From Branchiostoma lanceolatum (lineage: Eukaryota > Chordata > Leptocardii > Amphioxiformes > Branchiostomatidae), in NCBI RefSeq assembly GCF_035083965.1, contig NC_089731.1, positions 2,705,001 through 2,769,000 of the forward strand: a stretch of 64,000 nt of DNA. The letters are read 5' to 3'. Both the position numbers and the translations under genes were made by a program. Positions 9,672 through 59,600 of the stretch are shown piece after piece. The notes below the pieces were generated by a model. That model was not told the DNA's origin. It worked only from the letters and a program-made list of their open reading frames with translations, and made no database searches. Position 1 is the first letter of the stretch, and each line of letters opens with the position of its first letter.

Positions 9672-12600
9672 ATGCAGTACGTGCGCGTGACAGACGACGA
9701 GAATGACGAGCCGATCGAGCTTCCGACGGAGGACGACGGCACGATGCTGCTGTCCACCATCATGGCGCAGTTTCCCGGCGCCTGTGGTCTGAAGTTCCGC
9801 AACCCGGAGACACAGACGATGCGCGGGATCCGCCTGGTGGATGGGATCCTCCACCCACCAGAGGGGGTCTGGGGATCGCATCTCTTCATCGTCGTCTTTC
9901 CTAAAGGTAAAGCCCTTGTTACGCATAGCCGGCTGACATGGCTACCAATCAAGTTTGGCAGTGAGTCAGAAGAAATCTGACCAGTTTTAGGTCCAGAGTA
10001 CTAGTCAAATTTGACTCCCAAACACACCCGCCAGAGGGGGTCTGGGGATCGCATCTCTTCATCGTCGTCTTCCCGAAAGGTAAAACAGACTGAGGTCCAG
10101 TCTTACTACTCTTTAGTTGAAACTTGCCTCCCAAATGCAACACACCTGCCCGAGGGTTCTGGAGATCACATATCTTCATCTTCCCGAAAGGTTAGATACT
10201 GTAAATTATCTTTTCTGGGGGAGGGGCTTGATAAACAGTTACTCAAAATTCAACCAACAGGATAAAATTTTGAAACAGACGTTTCAGACAGCATTCGCTG
10301 TCTTTCATCAGTGACTAAAGGGAAGAACTGGAGAACCAGGTCACTGAGGAAATACAGTGGATGCTGCCTGAAACATCTGTTTCAAAATTCTATCCAGTTG
10401 CTTGAGTAACTAACTTAGTAACTATTTTTGGCATATCTTAGTTTAATGTCTAACTAACCTACATCAGTGAGATCATCTTCGTTGTGAGAATCCTTTGAGT
10501 TAGCCTGAGTGACATCCTGTTTCAGTTCCAGGCTCTACCTTCACCAAACAGTCTTAGAAGTTAGATTGCTGCCATTCAAGTTGTCTGGAATAAATGTATC
10601 AGGCCAGATTCTAACCTAGCACGCTAATTGGTCCCGTCTGTCAAAGCTCCATAAGCAATCTCAGTATAGGGATCACCCGTCCCAGAAAGGACCAAACGAC
10701 ACTCGGGCTACCTTTTAGCCTGGTTTCGTTTATGTTTTTCATTGACAAACCTTTTTTCCTGTTTTGATTCCCTGAACAGACAACAAGAGAAAGATAGACG
10801 AGAGTCCAGAGAACAACTTGGTGAAACGACCGCGAGAGAAACTGAAGTGCAGCGACCTGATCGTGCTGGGTCTCCCCTGGAAAACCACAGAACAGGAGCT
10901 GAGAGAGTACATGGAACAGTACGGGGAGGTGCTGATGGTCCAGGTACAAACACAAACTACTCATGTAGTTACGTCTATATCTAACTTACAGCAAGTACAT
11001 AGTCATACCTGGGTCTTCCCTGGAAAACTACAGAACAGGAGCTGAGAGAGTACATGGAATAGTATTGGGAGGTGCAGATAATTCAGGTGCAAACAAAATC
11101 TTCTAACTCCTACTCCTCTAGTTACATCTATTTCTGACTAACTATAGACTCATACTTATAACTGGTCTGCCCTGGAAAACGACCAAACAGGAGCAGGGAG
11201 GAGTTAGTGTAAGGAGGTCCGATAAGGATTGTAGCTGCTTCTCTCTACCTCACATGGAACTGGAATGAAAGCAAAACATCTTCAGTTCAAATGTTTTTGT
11301 TTCCTACCCTATCACGTACATGTAATATGTTTATTTTATCAACACTTTCTTGAGGTAACCGGATGATGGTCAGGTAGTTATGGCACACTGTTGATGATAT
11401 TTGCTTTGCAGATAAAGAAAGACCCGAAGAGGGGGAACTCGAAAGGGTTCGGGTTCGTTCAGTTTGTGGACTACGAGGTTCTAGTTGTGTAGGGCGTCCA
11501 AAAGACGCATGGACGCAAAGGTAGCTAATACCCTGCTGCAAAGCTGTACTAGAGTAATGACTCACTGTTGATGTTTCCTTTGCAGATTAAGAAAGACCCG
11601 AAGACAGGGAACTCGAAAGGGTTCGGGTTCGTCAGGTTTGCGGAGTACGAGGTTCAGCTGAAGGTCATGACCCAGCGTCACATGATCGACGGACGCTGGT
11701 GCGACGTCAAGATTCCGCATTCCAAGGTTGGCGACTTCGAGGTGACTGACAGGGGAGGAGTTAAACAAACTCTGACTTAATCTTGCATCAAATTTTTCTG
11801 CTTAATAGAAACTGTTAAACTGAGCTATAAGTATTTGTTAAGAGAATTCTTATCTGGTTTGGCTGTCCATATTTTTATACAAATTTTAGAAATTCAGGGC
11901 AAATTCAGTGAAATGTGCCAGAAAGTATAAAGTTGTTTTCTTTCTCAAGTGCAAGATAGTCATTTCTGACACAGGATTTACCTACATACCTACCTCCATG
12001 TTTTTTTTTTAAAACCAGATAATGCAAATATACACACATTTTACACAGACGCACATTATTTCCAAAGACAATTACAATAATACGAGGGGTGATCAATAAG
12101 ACTAGTCCTCGGCCTCACCCAGGATTTACCTATCTTAAGTCTAGAAAAAATGTAGCCCAAAAACTTAAGTGAACTGAATGGACCACCCTAAAGAATCTAA
12201 AAGATAAATAAAAGTAGTGTTTGAGTTTGTTTAGGTACTTTTGTACAGGTACACCAGGTCCTGATGTTCAGGTTTTACAGGAACAGCTCCAGGGTTTAGG
12301 TACACAGTCATAGCAGGGTACTGTAAATCACTTTAATATGGCGGCAGGAAAATATAGTGGTTGGGGGAAAATGGAGTGGGTCACGGCACTTAATTTTAAC
12401 GGTGGGAACAAACATTACCATCTCAAATATCAGTGATCAAATATTAGTGATGATGAAATTTTAGCTGTTGACTAGTGGCCGTTCAATCAGCTAAAATTAA
12501 GTCACAGTTAACAAATCAATAATTACAGTAGTTAACAGTTTATATTTTGTCTTCAGTTCTAACCATGCTCCTGTGTCCCCCACAGGACGAGGGGGTGAAC

Positions 12601-15455: not shown

Positions 15456-16565
15456 CTTTGTCTTTGTGGTCTTTTCTTTTTTTGTGTGTTAAACTTTAGG
15501 ACACTTGTTTTCTTCCTTGAGGACACTTGTTTTCTTCCTTGAACTAGGTTCATGCCCTTTATATCTAAACATCGGCTAAGATATATACAAACATGGAAAC
15601 AAGACTGGAAGGAATAGTAGTTAGATGTAGGATTCTATCCTTTGAATATTTTCAGTTTTTCGAAAGCAGCAGTAATAAAAACAGTACCCCTTGTTTATAG
15701 AGGGTCTAAAAACGCTGGAACTGAGAAGCTGTACTGTTGAGAAAACCTGGCAGCTAAAGGGTTAACAATATGGTCAGAGACCAGAATGGGTCTGTTGGCC
15801 TTTTTTTAGTTGTTCCTCAAGCATTCAGATTACTATTTTAATTGGTGAATATGCCATACATTGACTTACGAAGTTTCTGACTTGATCAAGCCTGACTAAG
15901 AGCCCATTCGTGGTTACCTCAACAGAGGTTTTAAGACACCCGGCTTCCAAGTCAAATATAACGTAACAGGGCAAAGGTCACTGATGTAGGCATGTCCCTT
16001 TGGTCCACTTTGGGTCTTCTCGTGTTCTATAGCTTAGGCCATGTTGATTTGATTACATGTATATGGATGACATACACCGTGCGCGCATCAAGTTTTGTCC
16101 GTTTCCAAAAAAAAGAAGACTTTTGAATCATGCTATAAATCGCACAAAGCAGCTGCAAATTGAGCAAATGTATGCCGTAAATTGGAGAATGGATACTTAT
16201 TTCGTTGGATACCAAGGTCAATTCCAAAGTCAAAGAAGAAGATGTGAAAAGAAACTAGAAAGGCCGTCATTTGCCCCTGAGCAAATACAGCATGTTTCGC
16301 CCATACTCCTCCCCAGGCAAACAAACAAGGTTTTTGAGAACTTACACCTCCATGAGATATTTAGAGCTGTTGGTAATGTCCTATTTCATCCCGGTTCCTT
16401 AATTATGCAAATAAAGTTCTAATGAGTATGGTCTATTTTTTGATTGATGCGTACCTGACTTTGATTGGGGACGTAAAAGGCACTGGAATGAGAGGGATGA
16501 GCTCCGCCTTCCAATACTTTGCCCTACATAGCGGATAACAACCCACTACCTCTACAGACCCGAGA
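15456..16565. other. Intergenic, with short tandem and dispersed repeats
   Basis: A 24-bp unit (ggacacttgttttcttcctt...) is tandemly doubled at 15500-15545. At 15660-15765 lies a copy of a roughly 110-bp dispersed repeat (agggtctaaaaacgctgg ... cagctaaagggtta) that reappears inverted at 18905-19010, inside intron 1 of the first lectin. A 121-codon frame at 16057-16422 has no recognisable domain and no splice context; not called. Confidence 0.5.
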
Positions 16566-16569
16566 ATGG

Positions 16570-17912: not shown

Positions 17913-18117
17913 TTTATCAGATGAACGTATATATTGATGTTGCCTTCCGTGTATGCCATAAGATATGCTCAGTCGGACACGGGACTCCGCATGAACCTTC
18001 AGCCTTATTTGGTCATGCTGTGGTTAATCTTCCACTCCAGTTGGGTGGACTTTCTCACTGGAGGCTCGCTGTCTGGAAACTTTGCCCGGCTGTTACAGTG
18101 TTACACGGAAGTCAACA

Positions 18118-18736: not shown

Positions 18737-21534
18737 ATGAATGTCTCTGTGGTTGTTTTGGTTCTTGCTCTGCTGCAAGTGGTTGTAGGGGAGACGGCTC
18801 CCAACAACCCGGGCCCGAGGACAGAGCAGTGCGTGTGCAGCCCTGCCATCTACGTCGACTATGGAGACAAAAAGGGCGAGGAGGCGGACAGTAAAGTGGT
18901 CAGTCTGCTTAACCCTTTAGCTGTTAGGTTTTCTCACCAGTGCAGCTTCTCGATCTGTGCCAGCGTTTTTAGACCCTCTTAAATATGCGGGTACTACTTT
19001 GGCATTACTTTGTTTTGTTACTTTCCTTTCAATTAACCACACCATGTCATACATCAATGGAAAGCTTAGACCCTCTAGTTTTCAAAAAAAATAATTTAAA
19101 TGAAGCCTAGTATCAATATGAATGAATTACAAGGGCAACTACTAGCTATAGTGACTGGTCATCATTCTTGAACTGGAATTATGTTGTAGTGATTGGTCAT
19201 GTGTCAGCTTTCACATCGATACATTTTGAAGAATAGTACTTGTGCGTTTTGTAGTTTCTTGTTAGTCTCCCACAGAAAGAGCTCGCCCTCCACATTTTTC
19301 CAGAAACAGCAAATCAGATTACTACCTTTGCAAATAGACCACGGGCTACTCCATGACCTATGATTTTCCCCTCCAGCTGTACCAGCTTCGGACCCAGTTA
19401 ACTTTGCTGCAGGGGTCAATGGAGTCACTTCGGACCCAACAGGTAGGGTCATCCTTTGGCCAAGTTACAGTAAACACAGCTTCTGATATGATGCATGATA
19501 CTGTACTTCCATCTATTTTCGGGGAAAGTAATTTTGTGTTTAATACCTCTTTCTATTCTGTTTTCCATTGGGAAACATGACCAAAGGCATCTCCAGGGGT
19601 GTGTGGGGGTGGGGGTGGTCTTAAGCTTTCAGACTCTAAATCTCCAAAAATATTGAACGAAATACAAACAATGTAGTTACCGTTGCGGCCATTCTGGACC
19701 AAAGTTGCACAGCTTCTTCCTTATGATACTGTCAATCTTCAAATGTTCGCGGTGGTTTTATTTTCGCGGTGACTTCTATAACCGCAAAATCGTAACACCG
19801 CGCGAATATGCGTTTTGTATGTACTACAGAATTGATTTCAACCGCGAAATTCAAACACCGCGAAAATCTCCTTATCCCTCCAACCGCGAAGTAAAACCAT
19901 CGCGAAGTAAATACATTTACAGTATACTGTACAAAAGTTCCATCTACTTTAAGGGGAAGATTTTCTCTGATTTATGGCTGTTTTCGTTATGTTTTCCTTT
20001 GTGAAATATGATCTTGATATGATCAATGGTATCTCCGAATGGTCTAATGAGTGCAGCCTGTGACCCTCTTTAACTTCCGGCTATGGAGGAAGTGATGTTG
20101 TCGGTTCTGTTTGTGTATATGTGTGTGAAGAAACAGTATAAAGCTAGAAGATTTGAATGTTTGCTGATGACGTTTGATTGGTGGGTAAGTACCTATGAAG
20201 CGAAGTGACAATTATTAGATTTTAGGCACCTTAGTGGTATTTTTTGCTACTACAGCAAAAAAAAATGTTATTTCCATTTTCTGTACTGCGCAAATTTGCA
20301 TTGGAAGTGGTACTGTTCAAAATATAAAGATTACTTTATTGACAGTGACTTTCGAAAGGTCTTATACATCTATTAACACACAGAAGTAAACACATGTGAA
20401 AAGGTTTAGGTATCTATTATATCATGTAGGGTTTACTTTGCATGGTCTAAGAATATACGCACAGTACAGAATTTGTATAGATGTTAGCTAGCAATCTAAT
20501 CAGCTACAGACTACGACAATATTGATGTTGAAGAGATGTTTAACCCGTCTTGTATCCACTACAGGAAATTCTTATTGATGAGGTCAGTAACCTAACAGCG
20601 GAACTTCTTAAGAAAGGTGAGTCTTACTTACAACATCTAAGCCCAAGTATCTAAGCTCAAACTATCAAAAAAATATATTGATAGTCAAGTCAAGTCAAAG
20701 TTTACTGCACAACGATTGTAACAGGTACAATGTAAGGCAAAAATGAAATACTACTGGCTACTTATATCAAACTACTAAAAGCTATAGTTAGGTTCTATGC
20801 TATACAATGATTAGGTTCTATTCTGTACAATGCTGCATTTCAAACTACATGAAGGCACTATCTATATAATATTGTCAAAGGTAGATGATATCAACATGAG
20901 ATACAATACGGAGTCGTATATGTCAATTATACAATTACATGATAAGGAGATGAATGTCTTATATAATCAAATCGCTATTTCACGAATTCTTTTGATGATA
21001 AGTGCAAGTCACTACAAGTGAAAAATGGTGGAATCTTAAATCGTGGAATCTTAAATCGTAACCCACGCTTACACAGTTTCCACTCTGTCCACAGCCGAAC
21101 CGGAGAAACCCGTCTGTCCCGACGGTTATGTACAGTTCGAAGACAGGTGCTTCAACTTCTCTATCGAAAAGAAGACGTACACCGATGCCAGGTCCGCCTG
21201 TCAGGCTGCCGGCGGGCGTCTGGGTATGCCCAAGGACCAGTTAACAAACGATTTCCTAACCAACCAGATAGAAACCAGGTACTTCGCATTCAGTCGCTAT
21301 ATAGTCTGGTTCGGCCTGACAGACGAGGTCCGGGAGGGAACCTGGGTGTGGGAGGACGGGACGCCGCTCATCGGCTGGTCCGACTGGGCACAAGGAGAAC
21401 CGGACGATTTCTTTAATCAGGACTGTGTAGGTTTTGGGTCGAGATTCGGCCTCAAGTGGGAGGATGGTGGATGCTCCCTTGATACTTACTATGTGTGCGA
21501 AACAAAAGCTACCTTCCCTCCAGTTGATTACTAG
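18737..21534 (+). CDS. Secreted C-type lectin-domain protein 1
   Basis: Exons 18737-18898, 19377-19442, 20565-20616 and 21095-21534 join to 239 aa. Signal peptide about 1-19 (MNVSVVVLVLALLQVVVG). A Cys-containing N-terminal segment EQCVCSPAIYV is shared with the second lectin. Residues 55-93 (LYQLRTQLTLLQGSMESL ... DEVSNLTAELL) are a likely coiled coil for oligomerisation. The C-type lectin domain (about 101-231) has the family Cys spacing, WFGLTDE and GTWVWEDGTPL. The calcium/sugar site reads EPD with WED in place of WND, so it is neither the classical mannose (EPN) nor galactose (QPD) form and binding is uncertain. The first donor (gtg|gtcagt) is the weakest splice call. A partial copy of the last exon lies in its 3' UTR. 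Probably an extracellular recognition protein. Confidence 0.9.
19735..19925. mobile_element. Foldback MITE (cgcggtggttttatttcgcg type)
   Basis: The left end ttcgcggtggttttattttc and right end gaagtaaaaccatcgcgaag are inverted copies, with internal ccgcgaaa motifs in both orientations. No coding capacity. It lies in intron 2 of lectin 1. Confidence 0.65.
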
Positions 21535-22055
21535 AACACTAGTACTGATTGAGCTACACTAAATACAGGATTGAAAGTTGATACCAATAATCTGGGCAAT
21601 ATCGGTTGCTATGGAGCGAGGTCGATTGTTATGTCCTATTCTGCTGGGAGGTCATGTGACTGAAAATGTCTATTGTGGCAACCAAGATCTTATCAATCGC
21701 TGTTTATTTGATTAGTCAGTCATGATTAAGTCAGCAGTTCAGCAAGTTTTTGACTGGCATATCTATCAACTTAAGTTCGGTCGACATATTCTCCCAGTGG
21801 ATGCATATTGCGACATTGATACTTACTATGTATGCGAAGTAAAAGCTACATTTCCACCAGCCGATTGCTAGAACACTGGCCAGGAGCTACATTGAATGCA
21901 GAGTTGGAAGATAAACGTGGGACACCGATAAGGTGGATAATATCCGTTGTTTTGGAGCGAGGTCAGTTGTTATGTTCTCTTCGGCTTGGAGGTCAGGCCC
22001 AGAGAAAAATGCCTGGAGAAAAATGCTGTTTCATTTTACGGTCCTAAAATAAAAT
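21535..22055 (+). repeat. Lectin 1 3' UTR with a partial copy of the last exon end, and poly(A) signal
   Basis: At 21818-21875 the last 18 codons of lectin 1 recur (gatacttactatgtatgcga ... gattgctagaacact), including a stop. The flanking 3' UTR is also copied (ttggagcgaggtcagttgttatg at 21950 versus tggagcgaggtcgattgttatg at 21612). AATAAA at 22048-22053 closes the transcript. The upstream part of the copied domain is absent, so this is an exon-edge duplication, not a second gene. Confidence 0.8.
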
Positions 22056-22585: not shown

Positions 22586-22589
22586 TTTA

Positions 22590-23140: not shown

Positions 23141-26100
23141 TTACTCCTCCAGCCAATCCCTGATGATTCCATTGACCACCGTAGGCTGGTCCTGCTGTAC
23201 GCAGTGGCTGGCTCCAGGCACCACCTTCAGAGTGAAGTCAGGTACAAACTTGCCCGTCCCTTCGGTCAGCCCCACCTCTAAGAACTCGTCCTGATCTCCC
23301 CAGATCTGCAGGGTGGGGCACGTCACTTTCGTGCCCTTGTAGCAGCGAGGCGGCATCTTCATCCCAGCGCGGTAGTAGTTGATGGCTACGTGACAAAAGA
23401 TGAGTATTGAGTATTGAGTTGATTGAGATACCCTTTAGCCCCTCTAGAGGGCTAATATTCCAGGGCTCATAAACACTACATGTACATCACAAAATACATA
23501 CATACACACATAGTTACATATATTTACATACAGATAAAAGCAGGTAGAATTGGAGAAAGGGATTGGTTGAGGTCAGAGGTCAGAAGCTAATTATGAAACA
23601 CATTTACATGGGCTGTTGTATTCTTGGTTTGGAAAAAGAGCATACAAGATACAAACTAACGAGGTATAGAGTGGGCAGGCAAGAAAACATATGGGGGCAG
23701 GGGGACTTCCGAGACCGAGAGGACTAGAAGAAACTATGCTTACGACTGACATGGCCTGACATGGACTAAGGCTTACCTGGGAAAAATATTACCTTGTGAC
23801 CAAATGTTAATTCATCTGAAACGGGCGGAGGGTTACTGGACGTCTCACGAAACTTAATGTGTATCTCGTGGCCTGTTAAATAAACGACTTAAATCTATTT
23901 TAAAACAGTAATTTGTGGTAGGGACTGCCGTCAAGACATATACTGGTCGGGACATTTCAACTGTGGCGTCGGCCCGGAGAAGGGATGCGTACTTTATTCG
24001 GGGTTTTGCATTTTACGTTTTAGGACCGCAAATTTGCCCAGAACTTTGCCCGAATCGGGGGTGCGTACTTTAATCGAGCAAATACGGTAATGATGTTTGT
24101 GCTCTAGAAATGGTTTGGGTTGAGAGCAGATATCCAAACCTATTGCAAAGCAACAGCAAACCAAACAGTGAAAAGGTGAGGTTTAAAGATAAGGGCCATT
24201 AGAAAAGTATGAGGACACCGATACCTGCTGACATGTTCACTCCGGGTCTGGCAAAAGTGTACTTGAAACCTTCGAAGTCCTCGTCTGTTATGGCGCCATG
24301 ACGTTTGCAGCTCATGAAGGCATTCACATACTGAAGGGTATACAGAGTTACATAAGAACTATGAATAGTCTGTGGAGCAAGGAATTGAAATGTGTTGTGT
24401 TATGGGGTCATATCTTTTAAACCAAATACATGTTTTATAAGTCAGATGGCATTGTCCCTTCTATTCATTAAAAATAACATTGACATTTCATTATAGTGTA
24501 TTTTTCAAATTCTTTTATCATACATGTACCTTGTATATAGCTGTTAACAGGAAAACATCAATAATAAAAAAGAGCTGGTGCAAACTCGAAACGCGGCTGT
24601 ATCGTGAGTGTAACTGGCTGCCTGTCTCCACAAAGTCAATGGCTTTAACAAAGATCCCTGGTAGCCATAGTAAATGGTTCAAGAAAATGTAACATGAAAT
24701 AATATAAACAAAAAACCATAATACACAAATTTGCCAAATCTCTTCGTGTACACTTACCTCAAAGTCCAAGGATTTCAAAAAGATCTCTGGTAGCCATGGC
24801 AGCTGAAATAAAAACATGTACCAGGACCGGCGGAGCTGTGAAAAGTGGGCGGTCATGTACTTCATGTAGAGGCCAGGGTGTGGGTTATTCATCACAATCA
24901 GCCTGTCCACAAGATCAGGGCGGTCGATGGCAACCCGCCAGGCGATTATGCCGCCCCAGTCGTGCGCCACCAGCGTGCAGGAGCTGTAGCCGAGAGCCTC
25001 GATCAACTCTCGCACGTCATTGGCCAGGTGGGCCAGACTGAAGTTGGGCCAGCCGCGGTAACCGAACGGTTGTGGGGACTCGGTCTCACCGTACCCACGC
25101 AGGTCGGGGGCGACAACACGGTAGGAGTTCCTATAAGGGCCAGGTGTAGGAAAATGTATGATGATGATGATCTTTAGCACAAAGACTCATTTGCGTTGGT
25201 ACACTCCATGATCAAATTTGATACTTTACTTCAACACAAGCAAATGTAGATCACCTCGAATTTTGAGTCGCTCATACGTCGACCTTCTTCAGGAGCGATT
25301 CAATTACTCCTTAAGGTCAGAGTGATTGAATCACTCCTGAAGACGGTCGACGAACGAGCGACTGGCTATTTGAGGTCAGCCACATTTGTTTGTGTTGAAG
25401 TATCAAAATTTATCACGATGATCTTTGCTTGCACGTTCTTGCCCATGTGGGTCTTGCCCATGTGGGCTAAATGCGGTAGTTTCATTATTACATGAAATAC
25501 TAATGTTTATGTAAATAATCATTACTTGAAGAGTTCCCAAACAGTGATATGATACTGTTATGATAATGCACTCCTAATATCATAGGGGATTGGTTGTATT
25601 GCTTTTGAAGACGGTTCTACTTTTTCACAACATTGGGGCCAAATGACCTGAGGCATACCGTTGTCATTGAGGTAGAATAGGCACTAATATTTCATGAAGG
25701 TATGAGGTCTCCGAACTCTTGTTTTGTATATGGGTCTGCCAGATTTTCCCAGGTCCTTCTGCTTGCAATGTTGTCGACACAGGATCCATTACAGGCTACG
25801 TAAACATTAACGTCCTGCTTAGTTCAACACATGGGAGTTTTTCCGCTTGGAAATGAAATACCGGTCCGGAGTATTTCGGAAATGAAATACCTGAACTCCT
25901 TGAGTTGATGTCGCCAGGAGTACCAGCACTCCGGGAAGCCGTGCAGACACAGCATGAGCGGCTTGTCCCTCTCCCCCGCCGCCACATAGTGGAACCTCAG
26001 CCCGCTGCTCTCCAGCCGCACGTACCCGTGTGTGCCCAGGTCCGGGTCGGCCAGACACTTCGGGCGGTCCGGGCGAACCTTGTAGCCGAAGAACGCTCCA

Positions 26101-31164: not shown

Positions 31165-31450
31165 GTTGATGAGGGTTAGACATCCAGGTAATAAGATATG
31201 CCAAAAATAGTTACTCATTGATGAGCAACTGGATAAAATTTTGAAACAGTCAAGACATTTCAGACAGCATCCGCTATCTTTCGTCAGTGACTAAGGAAAG
31301 ATCGGGCAGAATAGGTTTTATAGCGAGTTTTGCCATAAAACCTAGCTCTGCTAGATCTTTCCTTAGTCACTGACAAAAGATAGCATTCAATGCTGTCTGA
31401 AACGTCTGTTTCAAAATTTTATCCAGTTGCTTGAGTAACTATTTTTGGCG
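31165..31450. mobile_element. Foldback MITE, family M1, fullest copy
   Basis: Long inverted arms: gcaactggataaaattttga ... atctttcgtcagtgactaag facing cttagtcactgacaaaagat ... tcaaaattttatccagttgc. The central spacer is itself partly inverted (aggttttatagcgag / gccataaaacct). Copies at 10230, 58480 and 63385. Confidence 0.8.
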
Positions 31451-44600: not shown

Positions 44601-47600
44601 AGAACATACAAGAATTTTTTTCTCCCCTATCTTCTTTTTCTGGTAGTAAGAAAAAACAAGAATTCAAGATTATGAAAACAAGTAACAACTAGAATTTTAT
44701 TCTTGAGTGTTCTTTATTTTCGTATCAAGAAACCTTGAGAAAGAAATTCTTGATTTTCTTGGGATGTTTAAGAAAATAGAAGAATTTTCTTCTTGCCTTT
44801 CTTGGGGTATCCTGCTTAGAAAAAACAAGAATTTTCAAGATATTTAAGCTAGAAGACAAAGTTTGAGTCATAACTAGAATAATATTCTTGAATGTTCTTG
44901 ATTTTCGTATCAAGAACCTTTGAGAAAAAAATTCTTGCTTTTCTTGGGATGTTTAAGAAAATAGAAGAATTTTCTTCTTGCCTTTCTTGGGGTATCCTGC
45001 TTAGAAAAACAAGAATTTTCAAGATATTTAAACTAGAAGACAAAGTTTGAGTCATAACTAGAATAATATTCTTGAATGTTCTTGATTTTCGTATCAAGAA
45101 CCTTTGAGAAAAAAATTCTTGTTTTTCTTGGGATGTTTAAGAAAATAGAAGAATTTTCTTCTTGCCTTTCTTGAGGTATCCTGCTTAGAAAAACAAGAAT
45201 TTTCAAGATACAGTCAAACCTGCCCAAGGCGACCACCCGGCGGACCGAGCAAAAACGGTCGCGATGGACAGGTGGTCGCCATGAAGAGGATTCTACTCAC
45301 ATGTTTCCAGGTCGAGGTTTTCAAATACAGTACGTAAATGGATGGAAAATTATGTGAATTTAGACAGCATGACCCCCACCAGGTTCAATTCTGATTGACA
45401 GGAAGATCCTAAAAAAATTGCATTTTCCGTTATCGATGTAATAATTGTATACCGCTACATCGTGTACAAATTTTCGTCATAATTTTTACTACAAAACAAT
45501 GGTTGCCTCTAGCCTCCTTCGCAGACTTCCTAGAACGGCGGCATATGTCACCCCTCGGCTACACAACTCCCTCGGCTACATAACTCCCTTGTGTGCGAAC
45601 CCTCCCCCCCCCCCCCCCCCCCCCCCCCATACATATGCCGCCGTTCTAGGAAGTCTGCGAAGGAGGCTAGGTTGCCTCGATGATCTCGCAGCGCCCTCCC
45701 GCATTCACATCACCGAATTAAGTTTTAAGGACTAAGACAGATCCCAATAAAAAGCCTGCTGGTCCCAGCCTTTTTTGGGGGCGCCGACCGCTGGATGAAA
45801 AGGTCAAAAAGTTTTCGATCTGACAACTAAAGATGAAAACGGAACGGTGTAATTTCGTCGCGCCGCGCCGCCATTAGCTCTGTGCGACCGCATCGAAAGG
45901 TAAGTCAGTGCAGCAGAACGCACAGCGTCCAATAAAAGTTTGTGAGATTCATGGGAATAAAAAGAAAAGAAGAATTTCAATTTTCACCGATAACTAGAGT
46001 ATTCGTAAATGTTCATACACAAAAGCATCGTGTTTTAGAAAAGTCAGCGGTACGCCAAATCCGGGCCGCCCCAAATCCATGATGGCGTCGGGACCAAGGA
46101 ACAACATTTCTCGCCGATGTTTTGCCCACCGCGAAGTCATTTTTCGGCGGAATTTAGCAAGACATGGACACATCTTTGCTGAAAATACAAGAAATAGATA
46201 GTAATTTCTGTGAAATCTGCCTTTTGACGCCATGCACTACGTATTCGTTTTGAAAATTGAGTTTAAACGGAACTGAGTTCGCGTTAAACTATAAGATTAC
46301 GATAGGCACAACAACATCACAAACATTTGTCTTTAAAATGTTTATAGGGGGAACGTTTTATTAAAACACTTCATGGAGGAATCGATGCTATAACATTGCT
46401 ATTCCATATATTTTTGTCCTTATTTTTGTCCTTACAGTCTTGAAAACATTTCCTTGAAATCCGACAGCAAAATGGTCTAATGTCACCACACGCTTAAAAA
46501 TTAGGCGGCCGCCATGGGCAGGGATTGTGCTCTGTGCGGTCCCAATTCGTGGCGGTCGCGGTCGCGTTGGACGGGTGGTCGCCTTGGGCAGGCAGCTTAA
46601 TGCTTGTGCCTATGGGGAAAATTTTCGGGACCGAGAAAAAGCGGTCGCCATGGCCAGGTGGTCGCGTTGAAAAGGTGGTCGCCTAGGCAGGTTTGACTGT
46701 ATCTAAACTAGAAGACAAAGTTCGAGTCATAACTAGAATAATATTCTTGAATGTTCTTGATTTTCGTATCAAGAAACTTTGAGGAATGCATTTCTTGTTT
46801 TTCTTGATAATAAAACTTTAAGAAATACAAGAAATACTTTGAAATTCTTATTTGAACTCGTATAATATAATGGTTGTTTCCTGGCTAAGATGAGGCTATT
46901 GCAAGAAATAGAAGCCAAATTAAATTTTCTTTAAAAATCTTGATTGTTCTAGCAAATATCTGCATAAAATTTTGACCAATGGCAACACTTGCCATGTGAT
47001 CTTTTCCTAACTCCTGATTGGTGGTTTCAAATGCCACAGGCAGTTGACAGCAGGGCCAAAGCTCTGAGAAGTTTATGCCTTCAAGTGCTGTTCACTTCTA
47101 GTTCTATTTTGTATTAATTGAAGACTCAAGTCGGTTTCAAAGTCAAAACCCAGGTACAAGAGAACATATACAAGATGGGGATCATGGTCTGAGCCTGCAG
47201 CAGATGCCAAATTTTGCACGGAAACACTGGATAGCAGTATGGAAAAGGTAAGTGCCCCCCTCCCCACCCGACTGTATGAAAATCAGCTCAACTTTATTTA
47301 TCATATGAAAAAAAAAAGTCAAAGGGCCCCTGGATGGTTTAATCGTCAAAAGCATCAAGCATTAGAGATAATGATAAGTATAGCCTCTTTGGGTCCAACT
47401 CAAAACATCTTTTTGGCCGACGAATTAATAGATTTTAATCAAAAAGCGATCCGCACACATTGGAAGATTACATTCCACCTCTGAGGGGTGGACTATTTTA
47501 AACGTATTGTTTCTGGAAAACATATGGATAGGTTTAAGAATGATAAAACATATGATGTGTTTTGTGAAGAAATCAATTCAATTGGAACTTTCACATCTAG

Positions 47601-50600
47601 AAGCTGGAAGTTAGTTAGCTCAACTCAGAAAGTAAAAATGAATAACATAGTCTTCATTTTTTCCCCAGATGTTGGAAGATGCCAATGGGAATGCCAATGT
47701 CAACAGAAATGGGCTTGAAGGGTTTGGTTTCCATAGTCGAAGATGATCATCTGTTAACACTGCCAAGTCAGATGAGGCTGCTCTACACCACCTTCCAAGA
47801 TGATAAAGAATTATATATTATGAAATATATCATATGTAATAAATCATATAGCATGTTAATTACATAGCAGTTTGTAATCTTTATGTCCTTTCAGTTTCAG
47901 TAGGCTTTGTATCAAAATTAGTTTTGGTATTTGTACAACAATATTGTATATAATGTATATTATTATTATACCTATTATTTTTGAAATAATATACTGTAAA
48001 GCTTTGCCAATGTCATTTTTTATACCAGACTCCACAATTTACAGAAATATTAAGCCATCAACATGTCATTTTAACTGTAACTCTTGGAGTGAGATTCTTC
48101 TTGTAAGAACATCAGTCTTAAGAGTAAGAAAACATTTCTAGGTAGCAAGAATTGTGTTCTTGAAGTAAGAAAAGTATTCTTGTTGTAAGAAGATTAATCT
48201 TAGAAGTAAGCAAACATTTCTTGACAGCAAGAATTGTGCTCTTGGTGGAAAAAAAGTAGTCTTGGTGTAAGAATATTAATCTTAGAAGTAAGAAAAAAAT
48301 TCTTGGCAGCAAGAATTGTGCTCTTGATATAAGAAAAGTATTCTTGTTGTAAGAAGATTAATCTTAAAAGTAAGCAAACATTTCTTGACAGCAAGAATTG
48401 TGCTCTGGATGTAAGAAAAGTATTCTTGGTGTAAGAATATTAATCTTAGAAGTAAGAAAAAAATTCTTGGCAGCAAGAATTGTGCTCTTGATATAAGAAA
48501 AGTATTCTTGTTGTAAGAAGATTAATCTTAGAAGTAAGCAAACATTTCTTGGCAGCAAGAATTGTGCTCTTGATGTAAGAAAAATATTCTTGGTGTAAGA
48601 ATATTAATCTTTGAAGTAAGAATACATTTCTTGGTAGCAAGAATTCTGCTCTTGATGTAAGAAAAGCATTCTTCTTGTAAGAAGATCAATTATAGAAGTA
48701 AGAAAACATTTCTTGGTAGCAAGAATTCTGCTCTTGATATAAGAAAAGTATTATTGGTGTAAGAATATTAATCTTAGAAGTAAGCAAACATTTCTTGGTA
48801 GCAAGAATTGTGCTCTTGATATAAGAAAAAATATTCTTGGTGTAAGAATATTAATCTTAGAAGTAAGCAAACATTTCTTGGTAGCAAGAATTGTGCTCTT
48901 GATGTAAGAAGATTAATCTTAGAAGTAAGAAAACATTTCTTGGCAATAAACAATCTTTGCTCTTGATGCAAGAAAAGTATGCTTATTGTAAGAAGATCAA
49001 TCTTAGAAGTAAGAAAGTATTTTCTAGGCAGCAAGAATTATGTTCTTGAGGTGAGAAAAATATTCTTTGTATAAGAAGATCAGCTCTAGAGGTAAGAAAG
49101 TATTTCTAGGCGATAACAATTTTTGCCCCTGAAGCGAGAAAAGGATTCTTGATGTAAGAAGATGTAAGAAAACATTTCTCAGCAATAAGCATGTTTGGTC
49201 TTGAAGTGAGGAAAATATTCTTAGTGTAAGAACCTAAATCTTGAAAATAAGAAAGCAGTTCTAGGTATTAAGATTGCAGGTCTTAAGTAGAGAAATGCAT
49301 TCTTGTTATAAGAACAAAAAACTTGAAAAGAAGAAAGGATTTCTTGGCTGTAAGAATTTTGGTCTTGAAGTAAGAAAAGACGTGTTGGTATAAGAACCTA
49401 AATCTTAGAAATAAGAAAGTAGTTCTTGCTATCAAGAATTTTGGTCTTAAGAAGAGAAATGCATTCTTTTTGTAAGAACATAAAAGCTAGCAGTAAGAAA
49501 CCATTTCTAGGCAGTAAAGTTTTGGTCAAGAATACCAGCCTTTAAGTGAGAAATTAATTCTTAGTATAAGAACCTCACATCCATGTGTCTGAATCAAGAA
49601 TATACATAGAAAAAAATCTTACTGCAAGAATTACTTTCCGGCAGTAACCAAGGTCATTTTTATAAGAAAGATTTTCTTACTACAAGGAAAAGCTCAGTAA
49701 GTAAAAAATTGCTTAATTCGTGGACAAAACCTTTTTCTTGAATACAGACAAATTTGCTTGCATGAAGTAATATTTTTCTGTATGTAAGAAAAAACTAGAA
49801 TACAAGAAATTGCATTTTTGGTAGTGTACGCATGCACATTTCGCAAACAGGTTGCACGCACACACATATGATAATTACACAATAGTCATGCTCAGGCGGT
49901 GCACATATGCATTCACACACATACACACATGTGTGTGCATATATACAATACATAGACATCCATACACAAACACACAGAGTCACATACACTCATACACACA
50001 TGTACAAAATGCACACTCATACACTCACACACACACACACACACACACATACATGTATACAGTCACATACATCCACAGACATGCACACACACATATACAT
50101 GTACATAAACTTAGACATAAACACTCTCTCACAGACACATGCAAAGGTACACACATAGATGTACACACACTTGCGCACACACTCTCACATGCACACACAG
50201 TGTCACACACACACACACACACTTATGTGTTAGTAATGAGGTTCCTTAATTGTACATTTGTTTGTGTAGGCGTGGATCCGGCTTGCCCTAAACGATGGTT
50301 TGATGGAGAGTTATGCTGAAGCCATGCTGAGGGACAAGGACCTCCTCAGGTCTGTACCATACAATGTACTATACAATATGTTTTGTCATGTGACTTCAGT
50401 AGTGGGTCAAAGGTGCCTGGGAGTCTGTCCTGTATACTATTGTCTATCTATATCTGACAGTGTCTATTTACATTGTATATCATGTCTTTTCGCCATGCAA
50501 AGTGTTTGGAAAAAGCCTCACGAGTACATGTTATTCCTTCGTTTTCAGACATTTTGAAGTCATTGCACAAAATCTAAATGACTGCATGTGTATTAAGAAT

Positions 50601-53600
50601 CAAAATGAAAACATGACTTCTGTGCTCCCTGAAACTTGATGTACTGTAACAAAAAAGAGTCTGATTTTATTATCTTCCAGTATGGAATTGTTTCTTTTAA
50701 TCAACAACCAACATATTTATTAATCTATTTATATCAATTATGAATGATTGTGACACTATTAACAATAACAGTTCCTGACTTACCACCACATACATGTACA
50801 CATCACTCTAAGCTTCATTTCTATTATGAAGCGTGATAGACAGAAAAAGTACTGACTGTCATGATGTAATGTGTTTCCAAGGTCCCACTACAGATCTATT
50901 GCCTATCTTAGAGATGAGGAACACCCAACCATCATGAAGAACCATTTGCAAGGTTGGTCATCACATTGTTAGAAAACCAAGATTTGTTTCCACTATAATT
51001 ATTTCATAGGCAGAATCTGATACATTGGAACTGTTTGTCTTTGACTGGGTTCAGATTGATAGGAACCATTAACCCCACCTGTGCATGTTCTGATTGGTTG
51101 AAAGCTATTACTCGTGTTCTGATTGGTCATAACTGTTTGTCCCTGTATTCTTATTGGTTGGAACCATTTGATCCTGTGCGCTGATAGGTTGAAAATGATC
51201 ACACCTGTGTTCTGATTGGTCACAGCTGTTTGCTCCTGAGTGCTGATTGGTTCAATCTGATCATCCCTATATTATGATTGGTCAAACTTGTTTGAACCCA
51301 ATGGTCTGATTGGTCACAGCTATTTGCTCTTGTGTGCTGATTGGCTGAAACTGATCACAAACTGTTCTGATTGGTGGTGTTCCCAGGACTGGAGGGTTTC
51401 CAGTTCCAGCTGTCCTACAACTCCAGCGTGCTGAATGACTGGGGTGTGTCCTCTCTGACCTTGGCTGGGCTATGGTCTCCCCAGCAGGCACCTGAGGCCG
51501 TCACTCCAACCTCACCTGATGGTAAGTCTGGCTGATAATCTCCCCAGCAGGCTCCTGAAGCCGTCACACCAACCTCGCCTGATGGTGAGTCAATCCTGTA
51601 GCCTCCCCCCAGACTTCTTAGGCTTTTGTAGTACTCATACCATCTTCTTCTGGTGGATAGTCTGGCAGTTAGTCTTCCCCCAGGCTCCTGAGGGTGTTAC
51701 TCCAACCACCCCTGATGGTAAGTCAAGCCTGTAGCCTCCTCCAAGGCTTCTTAGGCTGTCATAGTACTCGATGGTAAGTATGGCTGATAGTCTCCCATCA
51801 GGCTCATCAGGTTGTACATCATCACATGCACCATCTTCTCCTGATGGTAAGTTTGGCAGTTAGTCTTGCCCCAGGCTCTTGAGGGTCTCAATCTGTCCTC
51901 TCCTTGGTAAGTCCAGAATAACCTCCTCACAGGCTTTGTAGGCTGCATGAGAAACTACTGTAGACATGTCATTGTTTTGTAAAATCCTATAATCCAAATG
52001 GCTCAGTAAATGTATCTAATACCAAAATGTTCTATTCTATCAAGTTGCCATGGAGGCCACCGAGGGCGATGACCCCACCCTGCCCTCACAGCAGGCAGCC
52101 AAGGAGGTCAGGCAGGTCAGGTCGACTCGCAAAGGTCAGAGGTCATCACGGAAGACAGTTGACATCCTGGATCCTGAGGGAGATCCAGATCCAGTGGAAT
52201 CCTCCATTACCATGGAAACAGGAGATACTTCTACGGAGCAAATTCTGTATGATGGCAAGAGAACCACGCCTGTGGAGAGCACCTCATCAGGTACGCAAGA
52301 AAAGGACACCAGTCAGGTTTTGTTGAGGAGTGCGGAGCCATCTTCTTATGACTCTGAGAACGCTGTCAAGGAAGTGGAAGCGGAAAATGAAGTGTCTTCA
52401 GGGGATTCTCAGGGCATTGGGAAGATGCAGGGAGTTTCAGCGTCTCTGCAGTCTCCAGACAATGTTCAGACATTGACGCCCAGTTCTCAGACCTTTGAGA
52501 ATGTAACAAATCATCAGACTCAAGTTTCAATGGATCCAACACCAGCAAGCAACTCAGTTGCCACTCCAAGCAGTGCTGTGTACCAAGCAGCAGGAACTGT
52601 GGAGAAAGTCGGTGGCTATACTGCAGACAATGAGGAAAACCTTCATCTCTCTAGGGGTGTGCAGAGCTCTGTGGAAACCCAGGTTGTTCAGCATACATTG
52701 CCAGCACAGTCCACTTTTTCTCTGCCTTTGCAAACGTCGGAGCAACCACAAGGAACACAGGAGAAAGAGACTAGGTCAGAAACCCTGACCTCTCAGGACA
52801 TGTTCTACGACATCTACAGCAGGAGCAGGACCGAGACAGAAGCTAGCATCACATCCCCGTCCTCCAATGACGAGGGAGAGAACACAGTAAACATAGCAGC
52901 ATATTCGCCAGCACAGCAGGCTTCACAACAACAAGAGCAAACTTCTGCTGAGAGCATGGAAAGGTATGAATCTTCTAGGACGGTGATATTCAGCAATTTA
53001 GAATTTAGAATAAAACTTAAGATCCTTCCCACTCCAATTGGTGTATAGCGGTGGTACCCATCTCTGTTTCTATAGCCCTTGGGTGTGTATTGGTGTGTGT
53101 TCAACCCCCCATACTCTTCCTGTAAGTGCTGAGTGCTAAGCAAAGAAAGCAGTATATGCACCGTCTTTGGCCATGGTATGACCTGACAGGTTTAAGACTG
53201 CAGCTTTCTGAATGAAAAACAAGTTCTCTATCCACTAGGCTTATAAAATTGCACTGGTCTTCAATGCTTGCTATGAATAAGTCCATACATGTAAGTCATA
53301 TGATATTAAACATCTCTTTTTGATATCCAAACTGTACATCTGGTTCCAGTGAGGAGAGTGTGGCAGGATACGGTAGCTATGGCAACAGCCTGGGGGTGCG
53401 ATCTGGTTGGTCGTCAGCCGGGACGAAGGACAGCATCCCTCCCGACCCCGGCAGACACAGGGCACCATCCTCGTCTAGAGGTACGGAACACTGCTTTTTT
53501 CAAATGTAGAAAGTTAGCGAATTTCGACAGCCCTAGATATCAACTTAATACATGATATACTATAAAGTTTGACACATTTCAAACATCCTGCTTGTAGTCT

Positions 53601-56600
53601 TGAGTTCTCTCCTAGTAGGTACTCTGCTGCTTTGTGTTAAAACTTATATGTAGTCGACATGTAAGCTTGTACCTACATGTACATTACCAACACACTATAT
53701 TATAAGCTGCCAGGGTTTTAGCATGTTGCACTGTTTTAATTTTTGAGATATACTCAATATTGTTTTTCACGGTGTATTCTCAAATATTGTTCCTGGTGTC
53801 ATATTGGCCCTAATTAATAATAACTTGTTCTAATACACTTATCTGTGTATGATTGTTGGAGCAATTGAAGCTCATCCTTGACTCCACTGTTGTTTTTTCT
53901 TCCAGGTAGCTTCGACTCGCTGCTGAAGAATTACTCGCCTCAGGGCAGCCTGGCCACAACCCCGGGCATGCAGGAAATACTGGAGACACTGGCTGGGCCT
54001 GACGCTGGACTGGAGTCACAACTGGAGCCACAGGTCTGTACTGTCTATTTACACACACGTGCACATGTACACACGCACAAACACACACACACACACCTAC
54101 ACACACACAAACACACACTCACAAACACACACACACTCCACACGTACACACGCACCGCGGGCATGATTCAGATCAGGACTAACAACACCGGTCTGTGTAC
54201 ATGTAGATGTAGAAACGTACCGATTTGTATTGTTCATAGACTCATTACACAGTAGTGCAGTAGATATTGGAAGCAATTTGATGATTTGTAGTATAGAACA
54301 AAGCAAACCGTTAGGTTTGAATTGTCCACCCAACTGAGTTTTTGTCAGTTTGCAGATTCTTTAAAACTAGAAATATCACATATTTAAGTTTTTAGCCTCT
54401 GATTGCTTTGCTCATTGTTTGTGTCTCTTTCTTTTGCAAAGTTTTCCTGCTTGATGAAGTCGATTTTGCTTCTGATCACCAATGACTGATGAACTGATCC
54501 CTGAAATCTGTTCCTTAGGAACCTGATAATAGCCATTTGGAAGAGAGTGATGAATTAGACAGAGAAGAGTTTGAGGTAATTCAATCATGCATGATGATAA
54601 ATGTAGCTCTATCAGCATGGAATACGTAACAATGAGCTTCCTTTTCATGTTGCTGTTATATCTTTGCATGCTTTCCCAGAGTTTGGAGTACTTTGAATTC
54701 TTATTTCTTGTCTTCCTATTTTACATTTGCATGCTTCTTTATCATATCAAGCTGCAACCACTCTTCATTATTACATTCTAACAGCTTTGTACTGCTTGTT
54801 TCCTTCTTTATTGAAGACTGCTAATCATTACAGTAACTATAACAGGATTGCATAGATTCAACCTCAACCTTTATAATAATATAGATAATGTAGCACAAAA
54901 ACTGAATATGTAATCCATAGAAAATCATAGACTGATAATATAATTTCAGGTTCTGCCACTGGGCTCTTCTGTCACCTCAGGCCATGCTGACCCTGTAAGT
55001 ATAATTATCATAATATACATTTACCTGACATCTTACCTGCTGTGCTACTTTACATCGATATACATCGTTTGTATGTTACCATTTTCCCTGTTTATAGACC
55101 AGGAGATTGAGGGCTTGAATCGCAGCTGTTGGTGTTCATTGGGCTTGGATGCAGCTGGAAAAGGTTGCAATTTTAATACATTAAAAAAATGTGCTGTACA
55201 TGGTGTCTGTCCGTGTAAACACCATAGGAGGGGTGGCTCTTTTCTCAGCTTTGCTGATGAAGATATTAATGTTTTTTTTATTGGTCAGAAATTACCAGCA
55301 ATGGCAGCCTTTCTAGCGCTGAATTTATGCAGGGTATTACAGCTTTCACACAATACACAACATATATAATATCTTATCCACACTTGCATTTTGTGGAACT
55401 GTCGCAAGGGTCTGGGAGGCTGCCATTTGGCGCCACCAGGTGACCTCAATATGACTTTCCCCAACCGAAGTCAGGTACTCATTTACAGCTGGGTGGAGTG
55501 AGGAAAGTCGTGTTAAGTGCCTTTCCCAAGGGCACAACATCGGTGACATGACAGGATTCAAACTCAGGTTCTGAGTCGAACGCTCTGCCGTTGCGCCACA
55601 TGACCCAGATGTGGTTTTTATTTTCCCAGAGAACGAAGGAGCTGATGGCCCAGCTGACGTCCATCGGCCGAGAGAAGGGACTCGACGTGCAGAACTTCAA
55701 GTGCAAGGAGTGTGAGAGGCAGATTGGACTCAGTAAGTAAAATTTTTCCTTAAATAAACACAAAGAAGGTTTTAAGTGTGCATTGTAACAAAGCTCTGTG
55801 AGTGCATTGCATCAGCTTAAAAAAAAGATCATCATTCTTAATGTCTCAAGCTGTACGCTTTGAGTTTAGGGGAAGAAGAAGAACTGCCTCACAAAATAGT
55901 TAAATGAATAAAAGACTCTTTGTACACAACCAAGTGCTTTATTCAACTAATGTTTCAGTGACTGCCTGTCTTCTTCCTCAGGGTAATTCTGACTGGTTCA
56001 CCTTGCACTGCAGCTAGATATGTCCCTGCAAAAATGACTTAACAGTCACTGTTCCTGTTATAGTTATTGATTTAAGTAATGTTTCCCTTTTACCCCAGTC
56101 TTTGGGAAATACCGAGTGTGTAACTACGACGGCTGCTACTACTGCGAGGAGTGCCACGTCAACGAGGAAGCCGTCATCCCTGCCCGCATCATCCTCAACT
56201 GGGACTTCAAGAAGCACAAGAGTGAGTGCAATGTGCTATAGGCACAGTCCTTAAAGAAGCACAAGGGTGAGCGCAAAGTGCTGCACATACAGTCCTCAAA
56301 ACTGGGACTATAAGAAGCAAAATGGTGAGTGCAAAGAGCTGTAGAATGATGCAGTCCTTAAAAATGGGACTACAGAAAGCACAATCAACTATGGTGAGTG
56401 CTCTGAGCTATAGATGTAGCCCTTAAAGAGCACAATGGTGAGCTCCCTGTGCTATAGACACAGTCCTTAAAACTGGGACTACAAGAAGCACAATGGTGAG
56501 CAATCTGAACGGTTAAACACAGTCCTTAACAGGATACTAGTATCCCGGTACAGTAAGGGAGTTTCTTCATTGACTTACCAGGCCAGACAAGTAAATTTAC

Positions 56601-59600
56601 TGCAGCGCCTCTCATGAAAATTAGAATGTACATGTATCAAGCAATTGGTACAATTTTATTCCTGATGTGCACAAACAGTGAACAGAATGTCTGATTGTCC
56701 ATTGTTGTGTCCAGTTGCCCACAGCACAAAGCTGTTCCTGCTACAAGTGGACGAGGAGCCGCTCATCAACCTGGAGGAGTGCAACCCCGACATCTACACC
56801 TACATCAAGGAGATGTCAGAGGTCAAGGTAAGATTTCAGAGGTCAAGGTTATGTTGTATATGTCAGTGGTGAATGATAGATGGCAGATATCAGTGTCAAG
56901 GGTCAAAGTAAGACAATAGAGGCCAAGATAAGGTGTCAGACATCAATGTCAGGTGTCAGAGATAAATGTAAGATGAGAGAAATCATGATGCCAGGGGTTA
57001 AAGGTAAAATATCAGTGAAGGTAAGACGTCAGAGGTCACACAATAGTCGAAGCCTGCATTAAGATCCTGGAAAAATCCTGAGGGTACAAGATAGTGACAT
57101 AGAACCTATATCTTTAGACGCTGCAGCTGTAACTGATTTACATATTGATTAAACTATTTAAAGGCGCATATGTTCATCTGTACATACAGTAAGGCCTTAC
57201 CACCTGCCCTTCTATACTTCCTCAGACCCTGCGTCTTCAGCTGAAGTATGTGAAGGCGTACCTGTTCACCTGTAACCAGTCAGTCGCTGAGGATCTCAGG
57301 AAAAGGTACAACTGAACATGACAGATTTTTAGGTCTATATTAAACAAACCACTTTCTGATAAAAATTATTCAAACTGTACAAAATGAGAGTCTCAGAATA
57401 TATATCTTAGAGTAGATAATAATTGATTTGAAAGTTTATAGAAAAAAATGAAATGCTAATCCTATCTGGTTGATAAATGTGTTGATACTGTAATTTCTGT
57501 CTCCCTGCTTTTTTTAAAAAAGTTTTAGAGATTACGTGAGTTCCAATGGAGTCCTGGAAGACTAGAATTGTTATGAACATTATTAAAACCTAAAGTATGT
57601 ATCACAAGTAAAATTATAATTGATACTTACCACATTGTAACCCTGCATGTACTTTTCCCTGTTGTTCCAGAGTCTGGCCCAAGGACTACATGTTGGACAG
57701 GATCCACCTGTACTCTGTTGTTGTAAGTTTTCAAAGACCTGTACATTGTACATACAAGTGACTGACAATTTGTACCCCATGACCCTCCATGTAAGATTGT
57801 CATACACATTTGTAATTGATGCAGAAAATTACAATTTACATGGAAAGGGTCAAAATCACATTAATTTTTTTGCACCAATTAAAGTAAGACAGAAATGGAG
57901 TGCCATCCACAGCCTGGAGCCTTTAGCCTATGTAAGAATGTGTAGTGTGTAGTGTTTGTATACAAAGTATATACAGAACTGCAGTACCATTTGTAACCAC
58001 CATGTGGAGCCTGTAAGTTTGTGTACGATGCCTGTACAGTGTGTATATGTACATGTATGTGTACACAGAACTGCAGTACCTTCGACAGCCATCAGGTGGA
58101 GCCTCTAACCTATGTAAGATGTCTGAGTGCAAAGTGCATACTGTACTATGTACAAAATGTACACAGAGATGCAGTACCTTTGACAGCCACTAGGTGGAGC
58201 TTCTAGTGTAAGAAGTACATGTATGTACAAAGTATACACAGAACTGCAGTACCTTCGACAGCCATCAGGTGGAGCATCTTGCCTATGTAAGAAGTCTGAG
58301 TGCAAAGTGCATACTGTACTATGTACAAAATGTACACAGAGATGCATTACCTTTGACAGCCACTAGGTAGAGCCTCTTGTGTAAGAACCACATGTATGTA
58401 CAAAGTATACACAGAACTGCAGTACCATTAACAGCCACTAGATGGAACCTGTAGCCTATGTAAGACATCCATTTGTTTTACGTTGATGAAGGTTAGACAT
58501 CCAGGTAATAAGATACGCCAAAATATATTACTCAAGCAACTGGATAAGATTTTGAAACAGTCAGACGTTTCAGGCAGTATCCACTGTCTTTCGTCAGTGA
58601 CTAACGATAGGACTGAGAACACCAGGTTTTATACCAAAACTCTGAATAGATATGTTAATGAGGTAAAGACAATTTAGGATGTCTTGAAGTAGTCTTCAAA
58701 AAGAAGATTAATTCAAGACAAAGTTTATGCCAATAGTTCAATTAGCTACTGTTGTTCTGTTTCCATTTGTTTTGTTCAGGACTTGCTGCAGGTGACGTCA
58801 GGGCAGCTGCAGCAGCACCTGAAGAAGGTTGTCAAACACGCCACCAAGCACGTCTACAAGTGCCAGGTGAGAATGCACTTAGTCTACTAACTTTAAAAAA
58901 CAAAAAACCTGATATTGGAAGTTGATTTTTCCATCCAAAAGCTGTCTTTTAAGGCCTACATCAACGTTTTGGAGCGAAATAAGCCATTGGCAGTGTAGAA
59001 TCCATCCTTGTTTTTTTTTCTGCCAAACCACTTGAAATCAATTGTTTGCTTAGTTGTTTCAAGCATTCTGCTTCGAGTTTGATCTGATTTACATTCTACT
59101 TATGTCTGAAGAAGTAAAGCAGGTAGAGTTGTAACCCTCTTCCCTAACTACCCTCCCTTCAGTTGTGCAGCCAGAAAGGGTTCCTATGTGAGGTCTGCAA
59201 CAGTCCTAACCCCATCTACCCATTTGAGACTGAGTCCACTGTCAGGGTAAGTACTGATCTGTCAGGGTGAGTGCACTCACAAGGCATGGTTTCTAGTGAT
59301 GTAGAAATATGTCTGTCACGTTATGTAGTGAGATACTGGCCATGGCAATGCACCCAATATTAATAATAGCGTGCATACGTAGTTCAGTGGATATAAAATA
59401 TTAGTGATCCTACCTCAGGATGAAGAGGTCGTGATTTGAATCCAGGCTGTGTTGCTCTCCCTAAAATACTGGAGAGAGTTTTAAGGACGGGATGTTAAGC
59501 TGTCCTCTGTTCACTGTACGGAAAGAACTAAGGGGGATTTCTCTGGCACAATCATCCTGTAAATACTGTACATATCATCTGCCTTCTCTGTCAAGACCAA

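Follow-up and report, generated by a model that had tools for sequence, protein, structure and literature searches.

In a 64,000-nucleotide (nt) stretch of the genome of the amphioxus Branchiostoma lanceolatum (contig NC_089731.1, positions 2,705,001 to 2,769,000; hereafter "the window," in whose numbering all positions are given), exon-intron junctions of three genes are accompanied by arrays of local copies of the junctions themselves. The genes encode TDP-43, a WD40 protein, and a protein with RUN and Rubicon-homology domains (the RUN/RH gene, called PLEKHM1-like in an earlier reading of this DNA, here the original prediction). The copies hold intronic as well as exonic sequence, and their template was therefore DNA rather than spliced RNA. 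Quite probably, the arrays are minisatellites of the "mirage" type, in which local duplication at the DNA level runs across a junction and the copies then drift while being spliced out.

Junction-spanning Copies in Three Genes

The coding models of six genes, set by hand with an automatic exon chain as a guide only, comprise 47 exons, 41 introns, and 82 splice boundaries; all run from ATG to stop with no internal stop and have GT-AG introns. A boundary was counted strictly when an aligned copy passed the junction by at least 4 nt on each side. The initial rule of at least 6 nt per side lost TDP-43 exon 1, where the copy has 5 intronic bases, and was eased to 4. Strict junction-crossing copies occur at 14 of the 82 boundaries, in three of the six genes: 9 of 20 boundaries in the WD40 gene, 3 of 6 in TDP-43, and 2 of 40 in the RUN/RH gene. 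Both exon ends are affected, with eight donors and six acceptors. In the anchor test, 15 of the 82 boundaries score at least 20, the one beyond the strict set being RUN/RH exon 16. When the flanks were shuffled, the best of 492 scores was 17, a control that covers the rule of at least 6 nt per side and not the looser rule of at least 4.

In TDP-43, on the plus strand, the exon 1 donor array (9852-10192; boundary 9906/9907) has its source edge at 9852-9911 and copies at 10025-10084 and 10143-10192. The exon 2 donor array (10866-11204; boundary 10943/10944) has a period of 143, with a copy at 11009-11142 and a partial one at 11164-11204, and at the exon 3 acceptor (11376-11655; boundary 11585/11586) the copy, 11376-11481, lies upstream of its source, 11553-11655. 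The WD40 arrays are on the minus strand. Acceptors are copied at exon 11 (33151-33452; copy 33274-33380, with AG changed to AT), exon 10 (33597-33765; copy 33709-33760), exon 9 (34318-34728; four copies, upstream of the real acceptor), exon 4 (37115-37330; copy 37229-37330), and exon 2 (39230-39452; copies 39292-39334 and 39402-39452, the latter with AG changed to AA). Donors are copied at exon 7 (35304-35417; copy 35304-35342), exon 5 (36063-36372; copies 36162-36256 and 36063-36106), exon 4 (36728-37039; nearest copy at a spacing of about 50 base pairs (bp), and a copy at 36945-36988), and exon 2 (38037-39161), where units of about 145 bp form five near-full and three partial copies. The exon 2 donor array also fits a period of two units, 294 bp scoring 1441 versus 1355 for 145 bp, and a TTTG-rich run lies in the intronic part of six aligned units.

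In the RUN/RH gene, on the plus strand, the exon 9 donor array (51476-51945) has a 63-bp unit and six aligned copies, five of them with GT, and an upstream AG is copied too. In these copies (51539-51945), the AG stands about 28-45 nt ahead of the GT, an arrangement resembling a micro-exon. The exon 15 donor array (56192-56529) has a 45-bp unit and five copied donors. The same gene holds arrays that cross no annotated boundary, two large ones in intron 6 (44585-45210 and 48094-49575, with units of about 170-184 bp and 82 bp) and one in intron 18 (57881-58465, units of about 173 bp).

Three more boundaries are weak. At the RUN/RH exon 16 donor (56811-57038, plus strand), a 20-bp unit (56811-56849) is followed by degenerate copies, which we kept outside the strict count. 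At the RUN/RH exon 20 donor (59235-59272, plus strand), one short copy at about 59250 is below threshold and was seen by reading the sequence. At the exon 2 donor of an α/β hydrolase gene (24628-24797, minus strand), the exon edge is copied with 83% identity over 41 nt, and the GT lies outside the copy. The original prediction had listed about 18 boundaries in five genes. What stands of this is the strict set in three genes together with the three weak cases; its lectin 1 example (21479-21995, plus strand), in which the end of the coding sequence and the 3' flank are repeated (21479-21654 at 21816-21995, 75%), spans a stop codon and no splice site. By coordinate, the exons numbered 16, 17, and 21 in that prediction are exons 15, 16, and 20 in our RUN/RH model.

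Thirty-nine clusters of local direct repeats emerged from self-comparison and a tandem-repeat search; 33 are within gene spans, and one of these, at 12924, is wholly exonic. Before counting, this exonic repeat was dropped by hand, and 7 of 134 repeat pairs were set aside as simple sequence. The predicted direct orientation of the copies is borne out, as none of 16 local inverted pairs touches any boundary. Within the window, 12 of the 14 arrays have no match more than 1 kilobase (kb) away, which counts against a mobile element; some distant match is found for the intronic side of the WD40 exon 11 array, which is related to repeats near 30.9 kb, and for a piece inside the WD40 exon 4 donor array. 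In the WD40 gene, arrays take up 2737 of 6748 intronic bases, with the filler between copies counted.

Decay of the Copies

Source and copies were compared by codon position in 15 arrays (the 14 strict ones and RUN/RH exon 16; RUN/RH exon 20 and hydrolase exon 2 left out), with divergence taken as aligned substitutions. If an exon under constraint has a copy that evolves neutrally, constrained positions should collect change in the copy alone and free positions in both, so that divergence at codon positions 1 and 2, codon position 3, and intron would stand in the ratio 1:2:2. The observed values are 90/1250 (7.2%), 94/625 (15.0%), and 124/917 (13.5%), close to this ratio. Bootstrapping over arrays gave 2.1 (1.6-2.8) for position 3 relative to positions 1 and 2 and 1.85 (1.3-2.6) for intron relative to positions 1 and 2. 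Thus, the copies look unselected and appear to be decaying neutrally. The codon-position test took over from a copy-to-copy comparison of exon and intron parts, in which the exon was less diverged in seven of nine arrays with at least two copies, the two others being RUN/RH exon 9 and the WD40 exon 4 donor; that comparison was not used because its alignments overran the unit ends.

The copies also span a wide range of similarity, as had been claimed, from 111 of 113 exon-side matches in three WD40 exon 2 copies to 25 of 35 in an old RUN/RH exon 9 copy. A rival possibility is that the arrays are an assembly artefact, with haplotype segments collapsed or repeated. A passage in PMC3087553 describes one mirage as apparently aberrantly assembled in an old draft genome. 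Here, however, the copies differ from the source and from one another and have indels of their own, and we regard an artefact as extremely improbable.

Copied Splice Sites

Among 48 aligned copies, both letters of the splice dinucleotide are aligned in 44, and 40 of these 44 retain GT or AG. The statement that the copied unit always includes the GT or AG was therefore too strong, although it describes most copies. Of the 40 intact sites, 39 could be scored with a generic weight matrix entered by hand; in 19 of these, the score equals or exceeds that of the real site. Eight copied donors lie within 1 kb downstream of the real donor of WD40 exon 2, and five of them score as well or better; at RUN/RH exon 15, the real donor has the lowest score of six, below each of the five copies.

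These properties might suggest that selection keeps the copies as alternative splice sites, decoys, or splicing enhancers. In addition to their retention and strength, the dinucleotides show a lower rate of change than the remaining intronic part (ratio 0.33, 0.08-0.73). Two results oppose this idea. First, with the source constrained, drift of the copy by itself would leave about as many copied splice signals intact as are seen: 4 of 88 dinucleotide letters are altered, versus 6.3 expected at the 7.2% rate of codon positions 1 and 2, a comparison made with no formal test. Second, use of an intact copied site would lengthen the exon in frame and without a stop in just 2 of 40 cases, both at WD40 exon 4 (+51 nt from the donor copy at 36945-36988 and +114 nt from the acceptor copy), and the other 38 fail. 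The latter result also weakens the earlier suggestion that the copies are a source of exon-length change. Selection for the copies thus seems very unlikely. It follows from the coding sequence that the exon-proximal site is presumably the one used, being the only one that keeps the protein, and if so exon definition, rather than site strength, would have to decide the choice of splice site.

Are Junctions Preferred?

Counted per base, they are not. Adjacent copies were found for 15 of 82 boundary anchors (18%) and 432 of 1649 intronic anchors (26%), as well as for 8 of 252 in exon interiors and 111 of 1604 outside gene spans; in the WD40 gene the figures are 9 of 20 boundaries and 137 of 371 intronic anchors. 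The original prediction had named a similar rate at random intronic positions as the outcome that would speak against it, and in raw form the intronic rate is indeed the higher one. We read this high raw rate as arising because arrays grow only into introns and because much sequence falls within a few big intronic arrays. With the boundary arrays removed, including the weak ones, the intronic rate is 238/1410 overall, 11/227 in WD40, and 0/94 in TDP-43, and it falls to 28/1190 overall when five large intronic arrays are removed as well.

Counted per event, junctions are overrepresented. Of 32 repeat events, 14 straddle a boundary, versus 4.1 expected when the unit is placed randomly outside exon interiors (the looser null; P = 5.8e-6) and 5.3 expected when entire arrays are placed under the condition that exons stay intact (the stricter null; P = 1.1e-4). 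The original claim of recurrent, local copies that cross junctions is upheld against such random placement. Among young events (at least 90% identity, unit of at least 20), 8 of 13 lie at a boundary, versus 2.1 (looser null, P = 1.9e-4) or 2.6 (stricter null, P = 8.3e-4) expected. In these tests, an event had to pass the boundary by at least 4 nt on each side and a random placement by at least 5; the RUN/RH exon 16 and hydrolase repeats counted as non-boundary, and RUN/RH exon 20 was left out. Unit lengths at 33151, 33597, and 36728 were set by hand, and the extent of the lectin repeat was limited to 300 in the stricter null. Because the window was chosen for its striking look, the P values apply to it alone and not to the genome.

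A window-wide pattern, as had been proposed, is not supported; the excess lies in two genes. Boundary events make up 9 of 11 in WD40, 3 of 3 in TDP-43, 2 of 12 in RUN/RH, 0 of 4 in lectin 1, and 0 of 2 in the hydrolase gene, with no events in lectin 2; WD40 and TDP-43 hold 12 of the 14 events at boundaries, and the remaining genes have 2 in 18 events. When WD40 is excluded, 5 of 21 events lie at boundaries, versus 2.5 (looser null, P = 0.083) or 3.0 (stricter null, P = 0.17) expected, which is not significant.

One explanation for this pattern, a weaker form of the mirage-type account, is that generic minisatellites meet junctions by chance and are noticed there, since the conserved exon source keeps a copy recognisable longer. 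The per-base rates and the lack of a significant event excess outside WD40 agree with this explanation, and total divergence is lower on the exon side (184/1875, 9.8%) than in the intron part (13.5%), a difference that a visibility bias would need. However, the event excess persists among events of at least 90% identity, for which visibility should have little effect. Moreover, if boundary copies are assumed to be twice as visible, P is still 0.0025 under the looser null and 0.02 under the stricter one. Under the looser null, P rises to 0.034 for threefold and 0.13 for fourfold visibility; factors above two were run for this null only, and under the stricter null the excess would vanish sooner. 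On balance, chance combined with visibility seems a possible, if doubtful, account of the arrays.

A second explanation, a stronger form of the mirage-type account, is that duplications are directed to junctions, in at least some genes, by polymerase pausing, RNA-DNA hybrids, co-transcriptional splicing, or a sharp change in base composition. The event counts, for all and for young events, favor such a process, as does the P value of 0.02 left under the stricter null with twofold visibility. The position of the junction within the unit adds a mild centring: the exon share of the unit is 0.27-0.92 with a mean of 0.60 (KS (Kolmogorov-Smirnov) p 0.04 versus uniform, with extents entered by hand), so that the centring on splice sites stressed in the original prediction is at most weak. 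The same spread means that the distance from unit edge to splice site is variable, which speaks against direction, as do the absence of a per-base excess, the loss of significance without WD40, and the reliance on a single window chosen as striking. A junction-directed mutation process is possible and lies beyond what one window can establish; as the explanation of these arrays we judge it unlikely. A broader proposal also seems unlikely to hold: that junctions are true hot spots of tandem duplication in certain genes of this lineage, that exon-edge copying largely feeds intron growth, and that the spliceosome routinely picks the outermost of near-identical, equally strong sites.

Origin of the Arrays

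In the mirage-type account, which we favor, a stretch of about 40-145 bp over the exon-intron junction (20 bp in the weak RUN/RH exon 16 case) would be duplicated locally, roughly head to tail, at the DNA level, probably by slippage, unequal exchange, or templated repair. Only the exon-proximal unit keeps the reading frame, and it would therefore stay functional. Surplus units would sit in the intron, where they are presumably tolerated through being spliced out and from where they may multiply deeper into the intron. These units would drift unconstrained, while the exon would retain its protein sequence.

Several observations sit uneasily with this account. First, the spacing exceeds the matched length in several copies (for TDP-43 exon 1, 60 nt are matched at a spacing of 173 nt). 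Such wide-spaced copies show that not all are clean tandems, and later insertions must be assumed. Second, copies in one array are not independent, and without the WD40 exon 2 donor array the divergence becomes 8.9% at codon positions 1 and 2, 20.4% at position 3, and 13.7% in the intron, so that the 1:2:2 ratio is only approximate. Finally, the boundary excess, even among young events, is not predicted by plain random duplication and survival.

Gene Models and Other Features of the Window

The TDP-43 gene has 4 exons (plus strand; Pfam TDP-43_N and RRM), the two C-type lectin genes, lectin 1 and lectin 2, have 4 and 3 exons (plus strand; Pfam Lectin_C in both), the α/β hydrolase gene has 4 exons (minus strand; Pfam Abhydrolase), the WD40 gene has 11 exons (minus strand; Pfam WD40), and the RUN/RH gene has 21 exons (plus strand; Pfam RUN and Rubicon homology domain). 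The Rubicon homology domain of the last matches the solved Rubicon chain 6wcw in the PDB. Exon reading was aided by human homologues. Exons 1-3 of the RUN/RH gene, which are small, and the exact donors of TDP-43 exon 3 and lectin 1 exon 1 are less certain than the rest.

Elsewhere, an intact-looking retrotransposon lacking long terminal repeats (4390-7698, plus strand) has an open frame of 1103 amino acids with endonuclease/exonuclease and reverse transcriptase domains. An inverted-repeat search found near-palindromes at 42419-42594, 31200-31449, 25209-25415, and 10250-10405, which are 156-250 bp long and 73-89% self-complementary and are perhaps small inverted-repeat transposons. The translated motif YASYQDVWDTL occurs at both 629 and 22551 (plus strand), which suggests a dispersed repeat. 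Rfam at the gathering threshold and tRNA scans gave no matches.

Relation to Known Systems

Repeats of this kind have been described in amphioxus before, and the Adh precedent named in the original prediction is correct. Passages in PMC3087553 report that intron-exon boundaries of amphioxus globin genes are duplicated in a minisatellite-like manner, name these repeats "mirages" after a report on Adh3, give units of 150-160 bp and 10-72 bp and haplotypes with 6 and with 3 units, and propose that introns are gained from mirages. Passages in PMC3902484, which also cites Adh3, describe repeats of 60 and 108 bp across splice sites of lancelet PGBD5 and mention troponin C. For published mirage loci, length polymorphism between haplotypes and somatic instability are reported. 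Among the matches listed, seen as titles and the starts of abstracts in a search that most subscription papers fall outside, there was no genome-wide survey of mirages.

The window is a dense further set of this published kind of repeat. It adds counts, a measurement of decay, the concentration in a single gene, and the observation that roughly half of the copied sites match or exceed the real ones in score. The WD40 exon 2 copied donors and RUN/RH exon 15, with its low-scoring real donor, offer a natural test bed for splice-site choice, and the decay of exon-edge copies provides a measurable clock, and with it a way to ask how often copies turn into exon or intron. Were the junction excess to hold across the genome, a mutation process linked to gene structure would be indicated.

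As far as the published passages go, the likeness to the mirages of Adh3, the globin genes BflGb6 and BflGb9, and PGBD5 is close. In both, direct local repeats lie over junctions on the donor and acceptor sides, splice signals are present in many but not all copies (here 40 of 44 alignable, of 48 in total), and the real exon ends the array. Unit sizes are of similar order, at 10-72, 60 and 108, and 150-160 bp in the published cases and about 40-145 bp here. Unlike in those descriptions, many boundaries of one gene are hit here (9 of 20 in WD40), and decay has been measured. Two other systems are more distant. Intron gain by tandem genomic duplication, in particular of AGGT, and treated in a review (PMC3443670), shares local duplication that carries splice signals; there, however, exonic sequence is duplicated and yields a spliced intron, whereas the copies described here derive from boundaries, and lie in introns, that were already present. 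Introners and other intron-making mobile elements likewise have splice signals that travel in the repeated unit, but their related copies lie at unlinked places, whereas the units described here are local, and most arrays lack a distant match in the window.

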